64,000 nucleotides of DNA, taken from Bacteroidaceae bacterium. Lineage in GTDB: Bacteria > Bacteroidota > Bacteroidia > Bacteroidales > Bacteroidaceae. Under the pieces are notes generated by a model. That model was given only the letters and a program-made list of their open reading frames with translations. It ran no database searches and was not told the origin of the DNA. Both the position numbers and the translations under genes were made by a program. The number at the start of each line of letters is the position of its first letter. Position 1 is the stretch's first letter. Below, one piece after another: positions 46,294 to 51,955 of this stretch. The stretch covers positions 1 through 64,000 of the forward strand of contig JAFTXN010000009.1 of the NCBI GenBank assembly GCA_017461605.1, in the 5' to 3' direction.

Positions 46294-48810
46294 ATGGCCG
46301 AACATTTCAACCCCGAACTTTCGTTGGCACGACAGATAGTAGAGCAGACCGGTACGCACCTTTTTCTCACGGGGAAAGCAGGTACGGGCAAAACAACATT
46401 CCTGAAACGTCTGAAGGCAGAAAGTCCCAAGCGCTTGGTGGTGCTCGCTCCCACCGGCATTGCAGCCATCAATGCCGGCGGAGTCACGATACACTCATTC
46501 TTCCAGCTGCCCTTTGCGCCCTATGTGCCGGGCACCAATTTTGCTCGCGATGCTTACAAAATGGGGAAGCAGAAACAAAAGATTATTCGCAGCATCGATC
46601 TGTTGGTCATCGATGAAATCAGCATGGTGCGAGCCGACCTGCTGGATGCTGTCGATATGGTGATGCGCCGATACCGCAAGCACGACCGCCCCTTTGGAGG
46701 AGTGCAGCTGCTACTCATTGGCGACCTGCAACAGCTATCGCCTGTGGTGAAAGAAGACGAATGGCAATTGCTGCGACAACACTACACATCCCCCTACTTC
46801 TTCTCCAGCCGAGCCCTCGGGATGACGCGCTTTGCCACTATTGAGTTGCAGACCGTATACCGCCAAAACGATATCCAATTTATCACACTGCTCAATGCCA
46901 TCCGAGAGGGGAAGGCCGATGCCACAACACTCGCAGCCCTCAACGCACGCTATCGGCCGGACTTTGTGCCACAGCAGAAAGATGGTTACATCCGATTGGT
47001 AACACACAACCGGCAAGCCGAACAGATCAACTGCGCAGAGATGGACCGACTTCCGGCCAAGCTACATACATACCGTGCCACAATACGAGGCAATTTTCCT
47101 GAATACTCCTACCCCACTGCCGAACAACTGGAGCTGAAAGAAGGCGCACAAGTGATGTTCGTGAAAAATGCTACTGACCATAGCTACTACAACGGCATGA
47201 TTGGCGAAGTGGCTCGCATCACAACTGAAGGAGTAAAGGTACGCACCCAAGACGGAGCTACCATTGAGGTTGAAGCCGAAGAATGGACCAACAGCCGCTA
47301 TGTGCTTGACGAGAAAAGCAAAGAGATTCGCGAAGAAGTGGAAGGCACTTTCACCCAGCTCCCACTGAAACTTGCTTGGGCCATCACCATACACAAGAGC
47401 CAAGGCCTCACTTTCGACCGTGCCATCATCGATGCTTCTGCGGCATTTACACACGGGCAGACGTATGTTGCCCTGAGTCGATGTCGCACACTTGAGGGAC
47501 TATTGCTATCCTCCCCCATACCACCTCATGCCATCATCACCGACACCACCGTACACCATTTTCATCAGCAGATGGCACAATTATCGCCCGGTCGCGACGA
47601 GGTGGAGCAAATGCGCAGAGGATATGTAAGTGAATTGCTCGACGACCTTTTCGACTTCAACCACATACACGAATGCTATGAACGCACCCTGCGCATCATG
47701 CATGAACATTTCTCACGCATCTTCCCAAGCCTCATCAGCAATTACGAAGCTCTGCAGCCCCTGTTAGAGCAAGAGCTGAAAGCCGTTTCCCAACGCTTCC
47801 GGACGCAGTACACACGCCTCGTCTGCGACAACAGCAACATCGAGCGACACGAGGAACTTCAGGAACGCATCCGAAAGGGAGCAACCTATTTCTCCGAGAA
47901 ACTGCAACCACTGACCGAATTCGTACGCCACCTGCAGCTCCCCACCGACAACAAAGAGGTGCTCCGCAAGACAGAGTTAGCCCTCACCGATTTTCGCGAA
48001 GCCACCACACAGAAGCAACGGTTGCTGGAATATGTCAAGGAAAATGATTTCCGTCTGAAAGAATACTTGCAAAAGAAAGCCGTGCAAGCCATCAGCGAAG
48101 AACGAGATAACAAGGGAAACAAAAAGACAAAAAAAGAGGCTGCCCCCAAAGGCAGCCAAAAGGTCGTTTTACCCACAGACATACTGCATCCCCAACTCTA
48201 CCAACAACTCACCGAATGGCGTTTGCAGAAATCACGCGAACAAGGCCTACCGGCCTTCACCATCTTGCAACAGCGCGCCTTGCTGGGTATCGTCAATCTG
48301 CTTCCGCAAACTCCGGAAGCACTCATGCTCATCCCCTATATAGGCAAGCGAGGCGTTGAAAAATACGGAGAAGAAATACTGGTAATCGTCAACCACTACG
48401 TCAGCAAAAACCATGTGAAACGCCCGGAGATACAGACCGAATTCGTACCAAGGGGAAAACGCATCGACACCTATGCCGAAACACTGCGTCTCTTTATCGA
48501 AGGACATGGCATCAGTGCCATCGCCACGCAACGTCAACTTACCGAAGAAACCATCTTCCGACACTTGGCCCGCTCAGTTAGAGAAGGTAGCATCACCTTG
48601 GATAAACTCATCCCCCAAAAACTACAACAACTCATACGTCATGCCATACAACAAGCGCAACAACGCAGAACAACAGACCCAAATTTTGAAACATCCATCG
48701 TTACTGAAGCCGTGAAAGAGCTGAACGGACAAGCCACGTATGAACAAGTACGATTTATTGCGGGGTTGAATGATAAAAGTGCGAAAAGAGGTCAGAAGCC
48801 AACAACATAG
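46294..48810 (+). CDS. PIF1/RecD2-like helicase with HRDC and helix-turn-helix C-terminus
   Basis: 838 residues from the ATG at 46294 (MAEHFNPE); the longer frame upstream runs through the promoter. Motif I is GKAGTGKTTFLK near residue 28 and motif II is DEISMV near residue 108. LLIGDLQQLSPVV is motif III and THGQTYVALSRCRTLEGL is motif VI, giving a superfamily 1B helicase of the PIF1 type. Residues about 640-715 form an HRDC-like domain, and 730-820 a helix-turn-helix region of the kind found in bacterial PIF1/RecQ relatives (AETLRLFIEGHGISAIA). It unwinds DNA 5' to 3', probably at forks or G-quadruplexes. The C-terminal additions are typical for Bacteroidetes. Confidence 0.9.
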   Translation: MAEHFNPELSLARQIVEQTGTHLFLTGKAGTGKTTFLKRLKAESPKRLVVLAPTGIAAINAGGVTIHSFFQLPFAPYVPGTNFARDAYKMGKQKQKIIRSIDLLVIDEISMVRADLLDAVDMVMRRYRKHDRPFGGVQLLLIGDLQQLSPVVKEDEWQLLRQHYTSPYFFSSRALGMTRFATIELQTVYRQNDIQFITLLNAIREGKADATTLAALNARYRPDFVPQQKDGYIRLVTHNRQAEQINCAEMDRLPAKLHTYRATIRGNFPEYSYPTAEQLELKEGAQVMFVKNATDHSYYNGMIGEVARITTEGVKVRTQDGATIEVEAEEWTNSRYVLDEKSKEIREEVEGTFTQLPLKLAWAITIHKSQGLTFDRAIIDASAAFTHGQTYVALSRCRTLEGLLLSSPIPPHAIITDTTVHHFHQQMAQLSPGRDEVEQMRRGYVSELLDDLFDFNHIHECYERTLRIMHEHFSRIFPSLISNYEALQPLLEQELKAVSQRFRTQYTRLVCDNSNIERHEELQERIRKGATYFSEKLQPLTEFVRHLQLPTDNKEVLRKTELALTDFREATTQKQRLLEYVKENDFRLKEYLQKKAVQAISEERDNKGNKKTKKEAAPKGSQKVVLPTDILHPQLYQQLTEWRLQKSREQGLPAFTILQQRALLGIVNLLPQTPEALMLIPYIGKRGVEKYGEEILVIVNHYVSKNHVKRPEIQTEFVPRGKRIDTYAETLRLFIEGHGISAIATQRQLTEETIFRHLARSVREGSITLDKLIPQKLQQLIRHAIQQAQQRRTTDPNFETSIVTEAVKELNGQATYEQVRFIAGLNDKSAKRGQKPTT

Positions 48811-48852
48811 AATGCACACTTCTTATCCACGCCACTAGCCGGTATCACAAAA

Positions 48853-48883
48853 AAGCATCTCCCTATGTCCTAAGGAGATGCTT
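48853..48883 (-). terminator. Terminator at the end of the polysaccharide operon
   Basis: AAGCATCTCC / GGAGATGCTT stem with an 11-base loop. On the minus strand it is followed by seven T, 42 bases after the WbuC remnant stop, so it ends the long minus-strand transcript. Confidence 0.8.
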
Positions 48884-48924
48884 ATCAATTCAAAAAAACA
48901 CGTCTGATGTTTCAGGTGGAGGTT

Positions 48925-49170
48925 TTAGCGTGGAACATACGCTCCATCTTTTGCTTCAAAGATAATGGAAGGTTCGTACACAATCACCTTGTGCCAAGCC
49001 CCCTGCGGCACTTGTAGTCCATACATACCCTCGGCCGGACAAAGAAGATGACGTTCCACCTCACAAAAGTCTCCCTCCGCTTCTTCATAAATCACTTCCT
49101 CCAAGCGACCTTGCAGGCAAATCACCGTTTCTGCGGTATCCTCATGACGATGGAACAGTCTTTCCTTACT
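48925..49170 (-). pseudogene. wbuC: WbuC-family cupin remnant lacking its N-terminal half
   Basis: An open frame of about 80 codons carries the second half of a WbuC cupin: LFHRHEDTAETVICLQGR (the metal-binding His motif), then GMYGLQVPQGAWHKVIV and FEAKDGAYVP at the end, all typical of WbuC. The first 40-60 residues of the family are missing, and the frame is open only back to a stop at 49171-49173, overlapping the end of the aminotransferase gene. There is no upstream ATG; the first usable start is a GTG at 49125, inside the domain. WbuC genes belong to O-antigen loci, which fits the place. It is probably a truncated remnant, although translational coupling with a non-AUG start cannot be excluded. 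Confidence 0.6.
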
Positions 49171-50941
49171 TTACAATCGCCTCTTTGATACATTCCACTA
49201 TGTAGTGCACATCTTCATCCGTAACATAAGGACCTGCGGGGAGGCAGAAACCCACCTTGAAGATTTCTTCCGACACACCATTCACATACGCTACAGCATC
49301 GGCATATACCGGCTGCTTGTGCATAGGCTTCCACACTGGACGGCATTCCACTTTCTTCGCCAACATAAACACGCGGAGTGCCTCAACATTATCATTGGGT
49401 TGACAGTCCGTTGTAGCACTTTCCACCGCCTTAATCACACCGGCAGCACCACCCACCGCACTCTTGATGACTTCTTTGTAAGCATTTTCCTGTCCTACGA
49501 TTTTCACATCCGCATCCAATGTGGCAGCACACAACCAGAAGTTGCTATCATAACGAGGATCCGCAGGTTGCTCATGCAAAGTAACCCCCTGCACATCCTT
49601 CAACAGTTCCTTGTAAAGTTCCTGCACATGCTTGTGGTGAGCGATATGCGCATCAAGCACCGTCATCTGTCCGCGACCGATACCTGCACACACATTGCTC
49701 ATGCGATAATTGTAACCAATCGCCGTATGCTCGTAATAAGGATAAGCATCGCGAGCCTGAGTGGCATACCACATCACGTTGTTAGCGTCTTCCGTAGGTG
49801 TGGCAGCCCCTCCTAAATCCTCCCCTGAAGGGGCGGACTTACCATTCGGATTGCAAGAATCCAATGCTTCACATGTTTCTTTAATTACATCAAGAACAGC
49901 ATCTGTATTAGCAAGAACTTCTTCATTGGTAAATCTAAGTTCCTTACATCCCAACTGTTCCAAATACAAGGTTCGTTCTTTATCTTTCTTTATTTGAGAG
50001 GGTACATTGTGATATCCACCATCAATTTCTATGCACAAATTCTTTTCACAACAAAAGAAATCAACAATACAATCTCCAATAATATGTTGTCTACGGAATT
50101 TAAAATCCAATCCCTTCTTACGAAGCATTTCCCACAAAGCCATCTCTGCATCAGTAGGATTTTCACGATTCTTCTTTGCAAATTCCTTTAAAACTCCATA
50201 TAACATCGGATCTGCAGAGTGTACCCCTATAGCCTTTTCATCCGCATGGAAAACCTCACCCTTTAGGGGGAGGCAGGAGGGGGCATTCCATCCGTTACAG
50301 ATAAGTGCACCACCCCCGGAAGTCGTAATCATTTTATTACCATTGAAGGAGAGCACACCGAAGCGTCCAAACGTACCGAGCACCTGACCGTCGAAGCGAG
50401 AACCCATACCTTCCGCAGCATCTTCAATCACGGGGATACCATATTTATTAGCCACCGCCATAATCTTCTCACAGTCGTAAGGCATACCATAGAGCGCCAC
50501 AGGAATAATCGCCTTCGGATACTTACCCGTAGCCTCCTTGCGCTCAACAATCGCCTTCTCCAACAACTCAGGGTCCATATTCCACGTATCACGCTCCGAG
50601 TCAATAAACACAGGCTTCGCCCCGAGATACGTAATAGGATGCGAAGAAGCACAGAAGGTAAACGACTGCACACACACTTCATCACCTGATTGCACACCAC
50701 AAGCGAGCAATGCCAAATGCACCGCAGCCGTACCGGCAGACAAGCACACCACCTTGCGATCCAACATCGTACCATCGGTCTTCTTGTTAGAGAAGTCTGC
50801 CAAATCCTGCTCAAAGGCATTCACATTCGGCCCCATCGGCACCACCCAATTGGTGTCAAAAGCCTCCTTTACATATTTTTGTTCCGCTCCATCCTCGCTC
50901 ATGTGAGCCAAACAGAGATAAATCATCTCTCTTTCTTCCAT
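49166..50941 (-). CDS. DegT/DnrJ/EryC1-type sugar aminotransferase carrying an internal DUF559 cassette
   Basis: 591 residues, about 170 more than the family. Residues 1-216 and 386-591 form a sugar-nucleotide aminotransferase (PglE/ArnB type): CLSAGTAAVHLALLACGV, VIEDAAEGMGSRF (PLP Asp), LSFNGNKMITTSGGG with the Schiff-base Lys203, and AIGYNYRMSNVCAGIGRGQM. The extra block follows Lys203 by 13 residues, after GALIC, and the family sequence resumes at NNVMWYATQARDAYPYY. The block itself is a DUF559 domain, described separately. If the fold tolerates the loop, the enzyme would transfer an amino group to a 4-keto sugar nucleotide in the cytoplasm. Neighbours are the ATP-grasp gene and the initiating sugar transferase. 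Confidence 0.85.
   Translation of the reverse strand: MEEREMIYLCLAHMSEDGAEQKYVKEAFDTNWVVPMGPNVNAFEQDLADFSNKKTDGTMLDRKVVCLSAGTAAVHLALLACGVQSGDEVCVQSFTFCASSHPITYLGAKPVFIDSERDTWNMDPELLEKAIVERKEATGKYPKAIIPVALYGMPYDCEKIMAVANKYGIPVIEDAAEGMGSRFDGQVLGTFGRFGVLSFNGNKMITTSGGGALICNGWNAPSCLPLKGEVFHADEKAIGVHSADPMLYGVLKEFAKKNRENPTDAEMALWEMLRKKGLDFKFRRQHIIGDCIVDFFCCEKNLCIEIDGGYHNVPSQIKKDKERTLYLEQLGCKELRFTNEEVLANTDAVLDVIKETCEALDSCNPNGKSAPSGEDLGGAATPTEDANNVMWYATQARDAYPYYEHTAIGYNYRMSNVCAGIGRGQMTVLDAHIAHHKHVQELYKELLKDVQGVTLHEQPADPRYDSNFWLCAATLDADVKIVGQENAYKEVIKSAVGGAAGVIKAVESATTDCQPNDNVEALRVFMLAKKVECRPVWKPMHKQPVYADAVAYVNGVSEEIFKVGFCLPAGPYVTDEDVHYIVECIKEAIVK
49806..50284 (-). mobile_element. In-frame DUF559 endonuclease cassette with imperfect inverted repeats
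   Basis: Within the aminotransferase, ends at 49806-49833 (GCCCCTCCTAAATCCTCCCC..AAGGGG) and 50259-50284 (complement GCCCCCTCCTGCCTCCCCCTAAAGGG) form imperfect terminal inverted repeats. Between them lies a DUF559 (Vsr/PD-(D/E)xK-like) domain, residues about 250-352: EFAKKNRENPTDAEMALWEML, FRRQHIIGD, DFFCCEKNLCIEIDGGYH and LRFTNEEVLANTD. Putative catalytic residues are Asp294, Glu305 and Asp307. The whole insertion is about 169 codons and keeps the reading frame. It has more A+T than the flanking gene. There are no intein splice residues. I found no clear target-site duplication. Confidence 0.75.
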
Positions 50942-50947
50942 GGTAAG

Positions 50948-51955
50948 TTATTTAATTTCCATCAAATAATCGTTCTTTGAAAACATACGTCCATACTCAG
51001 GTTGAAGCATTTGAGGCTCCACCTCTTCACCCTTCACCCACTGAATAATGGCTTTGGGCATATTCACACCAGCCTCATAACTGAAGGGGAACCCTCCACC
51101 AAAACGAGGATTCAATTCCAATACGCAATAATCACCATTAGCACGTTGCATGATGTCCACATCAAGGTTGCCAATATGCTTCAAGGCTTCACCAATCTTT
51201 CGTCCCATTTCACGCACTTCGGGCAAGTCTCGTGTTACGGCCTTATCCGTTTCGCCTGCACGCATTGCTAATTTTTGCTTCACAGACACACCTACGTTAT
51301 TACCCTCAAGGTCGTTCATGACATCAAGTCCAAACTCGTTTCCTGTCAGTTTTTCCTGAATCATGATATACTCATCACCTACCGAAGCAGTTGCAAGAAT
51401 TGTTTTCTTAATCTTCTTCATCAACAAATGGTAGTAGATATCCAATTCCTCCATGTCAGCAATAGATTCCAATCCGATAGAGCCAGACCCCCAACGTGGT
51501 TTCATGAATAAGGGAAAATGAATTTCACCTTTTGCCAAAGCGTCCTTCACGTCTTGCAATCTGACATAAGTCTTAGGGGATTTTAACCCCAATGATTCCA
51601 CCCACTGAGCCGTTTTATATTTATCGAAACAAATATCAATTACTTCCGGATCAGAAACTATAACCTTCACGCCCAAATCCTCAAATCGTGCTTTGTTTTC
51701 GGCCAAGATAGGAAGTTCCAGGTCATTCAAACTAATCAGAACATTGATATTATGTTCCTTACAAATTCCAAGCGTTATATCCACGTAATCTGCGGCATAC
51801 ACCGCAGGAACTTGAATTTTAACATCAGCCACCTGCAATGCTGGAGCAGACAACTGCATATCCGTAGCAAAGACCTTGTCACCTTCAGACAAGTTCTCTT
51901 TAAAGTACTTCAGCAAGTACGTGCGACGTCCCGCACAAGTAAATAAAATATTCAT
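50948..51955 (-). CDS. ATP-grasp carboxylate-amine ligase-like enzyme
   Basis: 335 residues. The N-terminal pre-ATP-grasp domain begins MNILFTCAGRRTYLL. The ATP-grasp core shows FPLFMKPRWGSGSIGL (ATP-binding Lys), EYIMIQEKLTGNEFGLDVM, and the Mg2+-binding VLELNPRFGGGFPF. It resembles carbamoyl-phosphate synthase-like and PylC-like ATP-grasp enzymes found in capsule loci, which join an acid to an amine or phosphate. The substrate is unknown. It lies six bases upstream of the aminotransferase gene, so they are probably coupled. Confidence 0.85.
   Translation of the reverse strand: MNILFTCAGRRTYLLKYFKENLSEGDKVFATDMQLSAPALQVADVKIQVPAVYAADYVDITLGICKEHNINVLISLNDLELPILAENKARFEDLGVKVIVSDPEVIDICFDKYKTAQWVESLGLKSPKTYVRLQDVKDALAKGEIHFPLFMKPRWGSGSIGLESIADMEELDIYYHLLMKKIKKTILATASVGDEYIMIQEKLTGNEFGLDVMNDLEGNNVGVSVKQKLAMRAGETDKAVTRDLPEVREMGRKIGEALKHIGNLDVDIMQRANGDYCVLELNPRFGGGFPFSYEAGVNMPKAIIQWVKGEEVEPQMLQPEYGRMFSKNDYLMEIK

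Follow-up and report, generated by a model that had tools for sequence, protein, structure and literature searches.

Results

An aminotransferase gene interrupted in frame by a nuclease domain

The window, by which we mean the whole stretch of 64,000 nucleotides that was analysed, carries on its minus strand a stop-free open reading frame (ORF) of 591 amino acids at positions 49166-50941 (ORF list of the window). Pfam recognized a DegT/DnrJ/EryC1/StrS aminotransferase (DegT, 266.6 bits) split in two parts around a DUF559 domain (PF04480), which matched at residues 252-357 with 104.1 bits, the curated cut-off being 20.6 bits. The same domain scored 108.1 bits when the genome was searched. With the frame free of stop codons and both domains recognized, we could confirm that an in-frame DUF559 cassette lies inside the aminotransferase, as an earlier note on this DNA had claimed. 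The features of the locus are listed below.

49166..50941, minus strand: host ORF, DegT/DnrJ/EryC1/StrS aminotransferase with in-frame insert, 591 residues (ORF, Pfam; best Foldseek match PglE, 4ztc)
50297..50941, minus strand: N-terminal part of the aminotransferase, residues 1-215 (91.8% nucleotide identity to the empty-site genome G263)
50333..50335, minus strand: codon of Lys203, presumed PLP lysine (motif SFNGNK; role as in the DegT family)
49793..50296, minus strand: insert of 504 nt, against 9 nt in the empty allele (alignment with G263)
50254..50284, minus strand: 5' terminal inverted repeat, encoding residues 220-230 (repeat alignment; pLDDT below 50 at 220-246)
49871..50188, minus strand: DUF559 nuclease domain (Pfam, 104.1 bits; residues 245-363 mostly at pLDDT 80-96)
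49973..50146, minus strand: conserved residues E266, D294, E305, D307, H311, D320 and R323 (at least 99% in 142 copies, 100% in 16 in-frame copies)
49806..49836, minus strand: 3' terminal inverted repeat, encoding residues ~369-379 (repeat alignment; pLDDT below 50 at 363-378)
49166..49792, minus strand: C-terminal part of the aminotransferase, from residue 384 (94.7% nucleotide identity to G263)

The insert starts at residue 216, 13 residues past Lys203, just where the earlier note had placed it. Judging from its role in the DegT family, we take Lys203 of the SFNGNK motif to be the PLP lysine. The imperfect inverted repeats proposed to bound the cassette were also found; in local alignments of the end regions, their score was equalled by 1 of 2,000 mononucleotide shuffles. 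The insert is indeed AT-richer than its host, with a GC fraction of 0.40 (0.34 in the nuclease core) against 0.49 and 0.50 in the two host halves. As about 9% of the 479-nt stretches across the 64 kb are equally AT-rich, this property alone is weak evidence. Between the repeats, DUF559 was the only domain recognized from ORFs and Pfam, and a transposase gene was not found there.

An AlphaFold model of the protein (mean pLDDT 80, pTM 0.70) has a recognizable DegT fold. The nuclease domain (residues 245-363) is predicted to form a folded unit of its own, linked to the DegT unit by two disordered stretches, residues 220-246 and 363-378, which include the residues encoded by the repeats. Confidence of the model is also low at residues 201-208, near the presumed PLP lysine, and at 397-409 and 496-506.

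Alleles without the insert

The aminotransferase was then compared with insert-free relatives. In genome G263, the protein is 97% identical to that of the window over residues 1-216 and 98% identical over residues 383-591, and the site is empty, with 9 nt (encoding QNA) in place of 504 nt. The inserted stretch thus corresponds to 168 codons, rather than the roughly 169 estimated earlier, and the net gain relative to G263 is 165 codons. At an E value of 1e-60 or below, the gene was present in 13 of 41 genomes sampled from the genus, and the insert was visible in that of the window alone. Of the remaining 12, G261 cannot be judged because no more than its C-terminal half is visible, leaving at least 11 of the 12 relatives empty. 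The domain is therefore not fixed at this site among the relatives; its fixation there would, according to the earlier note, have refuted mobility. In another genus, a DUF559 insert was found at the same place of DegT in two of the five genomes harbouring the gene (L103 and L104; 19 genomes searched), and the remaining three were empty.

In the DegT sequences of L104, L054, L247 and L248 (4 of 18 aligned), we noticed a short in-frame insert of about 23 residues following QPVY, in a different loop.

Hosts and sites of the DUF559 element

Within the bacterial family, 91 of 251 genomes have a DUF559 match; in a sample from across the phylum, 138 of 247 do. The family set consists of at least 150 matches; the matches listed gave 149 non-identical rows, from which 142 intact copies were kept and seven dropped (five with an internal stop, two cut at locus edges). 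Among the matches listed, in-frame insertion within a host ORF is a minority form (16 of 142 intact copies). Stand-alone copies at gene junctions are commoner, with 105 copies in a class that may take in some splitting a gene out of frame, and 15 N-terminal and 6 C-terminal fusions make up the remainder.

The 16 in-frame hosts are of seven kinds: SpoIID (5), DegT (3), NAD-dependent epimerase (3), CapF-like epimerase with Polysacc_synt_C (2, interrupted at different places), and one each of a MiaB-like radical SAM enzyme, a PIF1/RecD-like helicase and UvrA. Pfam named 11 of these and flank homology or alignment the others; CapF-like, MiaB-like and RecD-like are our own labels. The element was present in UvrA in only 1 of 17 genomes having a match. 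The empty UvrA genes of four genomes (L253-L256, L269-L272) were seen to be variable over 40-58 nt at the place of the element in L102, and in some alleles this stretch consists of short repeats such as CAAGTCAACGAGTCTA.

The range of hosts was also examined across the phylum. These loci were picked mainly for long open frames, and thus illustrate breadth rather than frequency, with a bias to long hosts. By the threshold of our script, 29 of 40 loci fetched were read through, and 17 of the 29 proteins were put to Pfam. Their hosts include leucyl-tRNA synthetase (LeuRS), MetH, RecG, methylmalonyl-CoA mutase, UvrD-like helicases, HsdR, HsdM, Eco57I-, ISP- and (weakly) MmeI-type restriction-modification proteins, an N6/N4 methylase and an M23 peptidase. 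LeuRS is interrupted at two different places, near residues 320 and 560. In all seven genomes searched, each listed as 100% complete, the interrupted LeuRS was the sole one found at an E value of 1e-10. A further weak match in G329 (31% identity over 151 residues, in a frame of 896 amino acids) is probably another synthetase.

Two side observations were made on these loci. Restriction-modification genes were frequent in-frame hosts (L205, L206, L208, L210, L211, L213, L216, L223 and L233), which may reflect the bias of a long-frame sample. A SAM riboswitch (Rfam RF00162, 82.5 bits) lies 5' of the interrupted metH, at L212:7250-7365 on the minus strand.

Grouped by homology of their flanks, the 142 copies among the matches listed represent 74 sites, of which 21 recur and account for 89 copies; copies in the same gene can still differ in the exact point of insertion (L008, L098). 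On reading by eye, multiply used junctions include leuA-leuC, argG-argC, korA-korB and etf-acyl-CoA dehydrogenase. Occupied and empty alleles occur at one and the same site, and the same site can be occupied in different genera. Identity between elements is often lower than that between their flanks, and a single site can carry distant lineages. In the tree, eight in-frame copies, including that of the window, form one set (SH-aLRT 85) residing in DegT, UvrA, epimerase and CapF-like hosts. A single clade for all 16 was not rejected (p 0.888), on 107 columns with 68 of 138 inner branches open. DUF559 matches at an E value of 1e-5 were found in 38 of 72,556 plasmid records and in 2 of 50,697 phage records, the latter count indicating that the element is not a common phage cargo.

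The nuclease domain is conserved

Residues E266, D294, E305, D307, H311, D320 and R323 are retained in at least 99% of the 142 copies among the matches listed, and in all 16 in-frame copies. The dN/dS ratio, which could be calculated for 23 of 42 close pairs, was 0.03-0.42, with 0.23 in the one in-frame pair (L091/L092), values that indicate purifying selection on the nuclease. In an hmmsearch against PDB sequences, the DUF559 profile matched 3hrl (1.5e-27), 3r3p, entitled 'Mobile intron protein' (7e-7), and PvuRts1I (9e-4). We take 3r3p to be I-Bth0305I, the type enzyme of the EDxHD homing endonucleases. A review assigns I-Bth0305I to the EDxHD family (PMC3943268). As for stand-alone relatives, a study on Caulobacter reports that the DUF559 protein VsrA is responsible for the SOS response in a cytosine methyltransferase mutant (PMC12907096).

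Matched ends and evidence of mobility

In most readable copies, each end is composed of an outer arm and an inner hairpin. The earlier note had proposed that the repeats of a mobile element should recur next to other DUF559 genes, and this was what we found in the family loci. We compared the two ends of each copy with the ends of other elements. Among the matches listed, the median score was 49 for a copy's own two ends and 20 for ends of different elements, and 104 of 149 copies scored above all ten controls. When the comparison was made with other elements of the same genome, the medians were 52 and 22, and 75 of 85 copies scored above all. Element ends obtained automatically from local alignment were often wrong, and were not used for sizes.

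Mobility is indicated by L118 and L133. Their elements, at different sites, are 83% identical over 509 nt, but the flanks are unrelated: similarity is lost at the repeats (AGACC...GGGTC), and the two loci have no duplication in common. Among four related pairs at different sites, this was the one with a clean break at both repeats; the alignment of L120/L123 falls into two pieces and extends about 13 nt beyond the 3' repeat, and the other two pairs are too diverged. A target-site duplication was not visible at DegT, UvrA, SpoIID or L118/L133, where the empty alleles are diverged at the junctions.

Ends also occur without the nuclease. In the DegT genes of L103 and L104, a second in-frame insert consists of both ends alone, in tandem in L104, and in the latter gene a lone hairpin also lies close to the N-terminus. 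In the SpoIID loop, G053 carries fused ends only, and SpoIID of L288 has DUF559-less ends in frame. In DegT of L104 (residues ~474-540), a nuclease-free end repeat was seen to be triplicated in tandem, lengthening the protein stepwise. The SpoIID loop used by the DUF559 element in relatives harbours, in L287 and L298 (G072), a different inverted-repeat insert (AATTGAAAATTGAAAATT... and its complement).

We then counted the hairpin CCCCTCCN2-8GGAGGGG in whole genomes. In 16 hand-picked DUF559-carrying genomes outside the genus of the window, it was present in 3-172 copies per genome, with 0 of the reversed control in 16 of 16, whereas 20 DUF559-free genomes contained 2 in total (control, 5 in total). 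In three DUF559-carrying genomes of the window's genus, it was seen once. In an unpicked sample of the bacterial family, 78 genomes had a strong DUF559 match (best E value below 1e-20), and 49 of these contained at least five copies; so did 2 of 13 genomes with a weak match and 10 of 160 without DUF559 (Fisher p 1e-20 for strong versus none, ignoring relatedness). The hairpin is absent from 22 of the 78, including the genome of the window. Of 43 nuclease-free hairpins in 117 loci, seven lie within coding frames. On these patterns, the hairpins together with the DUF559 element resemble a repeat family with an enzyme-coding member.

The genome of the window (81% complete) contains one aminotransferase locus at an E value of 1e-60 or below, a single DUF559 copy, and none of the exact hairpins tested. 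The end score of its element, 42, is below those of most other copies. Taking into account the single DUF559 copy and the lack of exact hairpins in its genome, the copy in the window may be old or stranded. Palindromes of this genome collected with CCTCCCCNNNAAGGGG as repeat copies proved on reading to be mostly a different repeat family and were not used. A palindrome family of this genome (G000) that is unlike the DUF559 ends (CTTCCCCTTTCAGGGGAGT) has about 15 copies among them (for example L033-L038, L040-L042 and L044-L050), several of which share the neighbouring stretch AGCTTAGGGCAACGCCC.

These results bear on which enzyme moves the element. One possibility is that a MITE- or REP-type repeat is moved by a RAYT or some other transposase, with DUF559 as a passenger or an enzyme recruited by the host, an explanation that overlaps with the one we prefer and differs from it in the motor. 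The nuclease-free ends in DegT and SpoIID, single or paired, would fit this, as would the dispersed hairpins and their enrichment in DUF559-carrying genomes. On the other hand, the two ends of a DUF559 copy match each other better than the ends of other copies, also within one genome, the active site is nearly invariant, and the element in the window has no transposase. We therefore consider a foreign motor rather unlikely, and favour mobility by the nuclease itself.

Most stand-alone copies tested leave the downstream gene translatable

Orientation was called with a codon model. Among the matches listed, 102 of the 105 stand-alone copies had both neighbours called, and 96 of the 102 were in the sense direction of both. 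The exceptions were one +/-, one -/+ and four -/-; five of the six belong to a divergent group of 25 tree rows, the sixth being L111. A count based on ORF length alone (70 of the 105 sense to both, 26 mixed, 7 antisense to both, 2 uncalled) was replaced by this one because long antisense open frames confound it, for instance at genes judged by eye to be sense. Neighbours are generally co-directional in these loci (432 of 521), but random orientation of the element would give equal numbers of -/- and +/+.

Among main-clade copies that are stand-alone or C-terminally fused (matches listed), the frame of the downstream gene is open through the 3' hairpin and contains an ATG within the element in 64 of 83 cases. 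In the two other frames, this was so in 11 of 166; under another definition, the restart count was 65 of 85. Counted from the end of the stop codon, this ATG is most often at -4 or -8. The korA-korB junction, which we read in detail, is empty in 28 of 30 loci: an ATG lies a short way 5' of korB, and the stretch read has no GC-rich repeat. In the two occupied genomes, G246 and G550, korB is instead opened through the 3' repeat by an ATG that belongs to the element and lies next to the nuclease stop. Given this restart arrangement at junctions, the in-frame form can be regarded as the extreme of a range of arrangements in which the neighbours stay translatable.

We also considered cryptic splicing, in which the insert would be removed after translation, as a new type of intein, or from the mRNA, as a new intron, so that the host is produced in its empty form. 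Insertion in conserved enzymes, including the sole LeuRS found, is typical of inteins and introns, and the nuclease domain is related to that of a mobile-intron protein (3r3p). However, the intein (Hint) domain was absent from the Pfam matches of 28 proteins scanned, introns were absent among the Rfam matches in 14 loci (the SAM riboswitch being the only match), and positions 48800-51300 of the window had no Rfam match at an E value of 0.1. Excision from RNA does not require the host frame to be open on both sides of the element, a spliced element has no need of a downstream restart at junctions, and the ends translate as Pro/Gly/Ser-rich stretches. With no Hint domain, no intron match, the frame kept on both sides and restart codons present, we regard hidden splicing as improbable. 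An immobile, useful fusion with a regulatory or defence nuclease domain would account for the purifying selection and for sites recurring across genera (21 sites with 89 of 142 copies among the matches listed), but is highly improbable in view of the patchy distribution within genera at DegT, UvrA and the korB junction, and of the eight in-frame copies that form one set over four host proteins, hosts that have no obvious function in common.

Discussion

Taken together, the element is probably a mobile, selfish nuclease cassette that lives in host genes without blocking their translation. It consists of about 0.5 kb, with structured GC-rich inverted repeats as its ends and a single nuclease gene of the DUF559 type (Vsr/EDxHD-homing-endonuclease superfamily). 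The element would reside inside transcribed genes and persist there because translation of the neighbours is not stopped. In the form seen in the window, both ends and the nuclease are open in the frame of the host, which would make the nuclease an extra domain of the host protein that hangs on two flexible linkers partly encoded by the repeats. In the commoner form, between two genes of an operon, the nuclease has start and stop codons of its own, and the downstream gene is re-opened through the 3' repeat by a start codon that overlaps or adjoins the nuclease stop. We infer that the nuclease cuts DNA and thereby drives homing or transposition, with the hairpin ends as its substrate, and that the host protein functions without splicing. 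Whether the full scheme applies, we judge to be an even question: a parasite of essential genes that is never removed, spreads by its own nuclease, uses its ends both as recombination substrate and as linker codons, relies on read-through or on stop and restart, and is the autonomous partner of in-frame coding palindromes.

In REP/RAYT systems, hairpin repeats are dispersed in the genome and an enzyme-coding copy is flanked by similar hairpins. The DUF559 family likewise combines dispersed hairpins with an enzyme-coding copy between similar hairpins, but its enzyme is PD-(D/E)XK-like and not a Y1/HUH transposase. To our knowledge, the source of mobility of the in-frame palindromes of Rickettsia is still open. 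The Rickettsia palindromic elements are described in a review as in-frame palindromic mobile DNA in unrelated genes that is tolerated by the protein (PMC10969869). The DUF559 cassette resembles them as an in-frame palindromic insertion in unrelated coding genes, and ends without the nuclease exist in DegT of L103/L104 and in SpoIID. The cassette differs from the Rickettsia elements in size and content, 504 nt with a complete nuclease domain as opposed to about 150 bp with a conserved peptide and no enzyme gene (PMC10969869), and the DUF559 family also has a stop-restart form at junctions.

Homing nucleases occur both within spliced elements and as free-standing genes, according to a review (PMC3943268). 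As in homing endonuclease elements, namely inteins, group I introns and free-standing homing endonuclease genes, we found a nuclease in conserved genes, empty alleles and recurrent sites, as well as a profile match to a structure, 3r3p, that is presumably the EDxHD enzyme I-Bth0305I. Unlike them, the DUF559 element has no sign of a self-splicing intein or intron, bears terminal inverted repeats, and keeps its nuclease within the host or translationally beside it. With stand-alone DUF559/Vsr-like nucleases such as Caulobacter VsrA and the protein of PDB entry 3hrl, it has the catalytic domain in common; these are single genes, whereas here DUF559 is the cargo of a mobile cassette.

In searches of the open-access literature, and in passages of PMC10969869, PMC3943268, PMC3733652 and PMC12907096, we found no description of DUF559 as an in-frame mobile element, and none of an element that carries a nuclease and remains part of the host protein or re-opens the gene after it. 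An earlier description is possible, with subscription papers and bioRxiv preprints mostly outside this body of literature. Enzyme-less in-frame palindromes and homing nucleases are thus known, and what appears to be new, as far as the open-access literature goes, is a nuclease-bearing cassette that is kept in the protein or restarts its neighbour.

Splicing is the usual explanation of how parasitic DNA can reside in conserved genes. The hosts described here, of which there are dozens, among them MetH, RecG, UvrA, the MiaB-like enzyme and the sole LeuRS found in seven genomes, appear to contain an entire nuclease domain. If our interpretation is correct, the element would represent a third way, beside introns and inteins, for nuclease-driven parasites to live in essential genes, and a route by which new domains enter proteins without breaking them. 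Its insertions would be natural maps of insertion-tolerant loops, the element would suggest an engine for coding palindromes, and nuclease and hairpin would make a small, testable pair.
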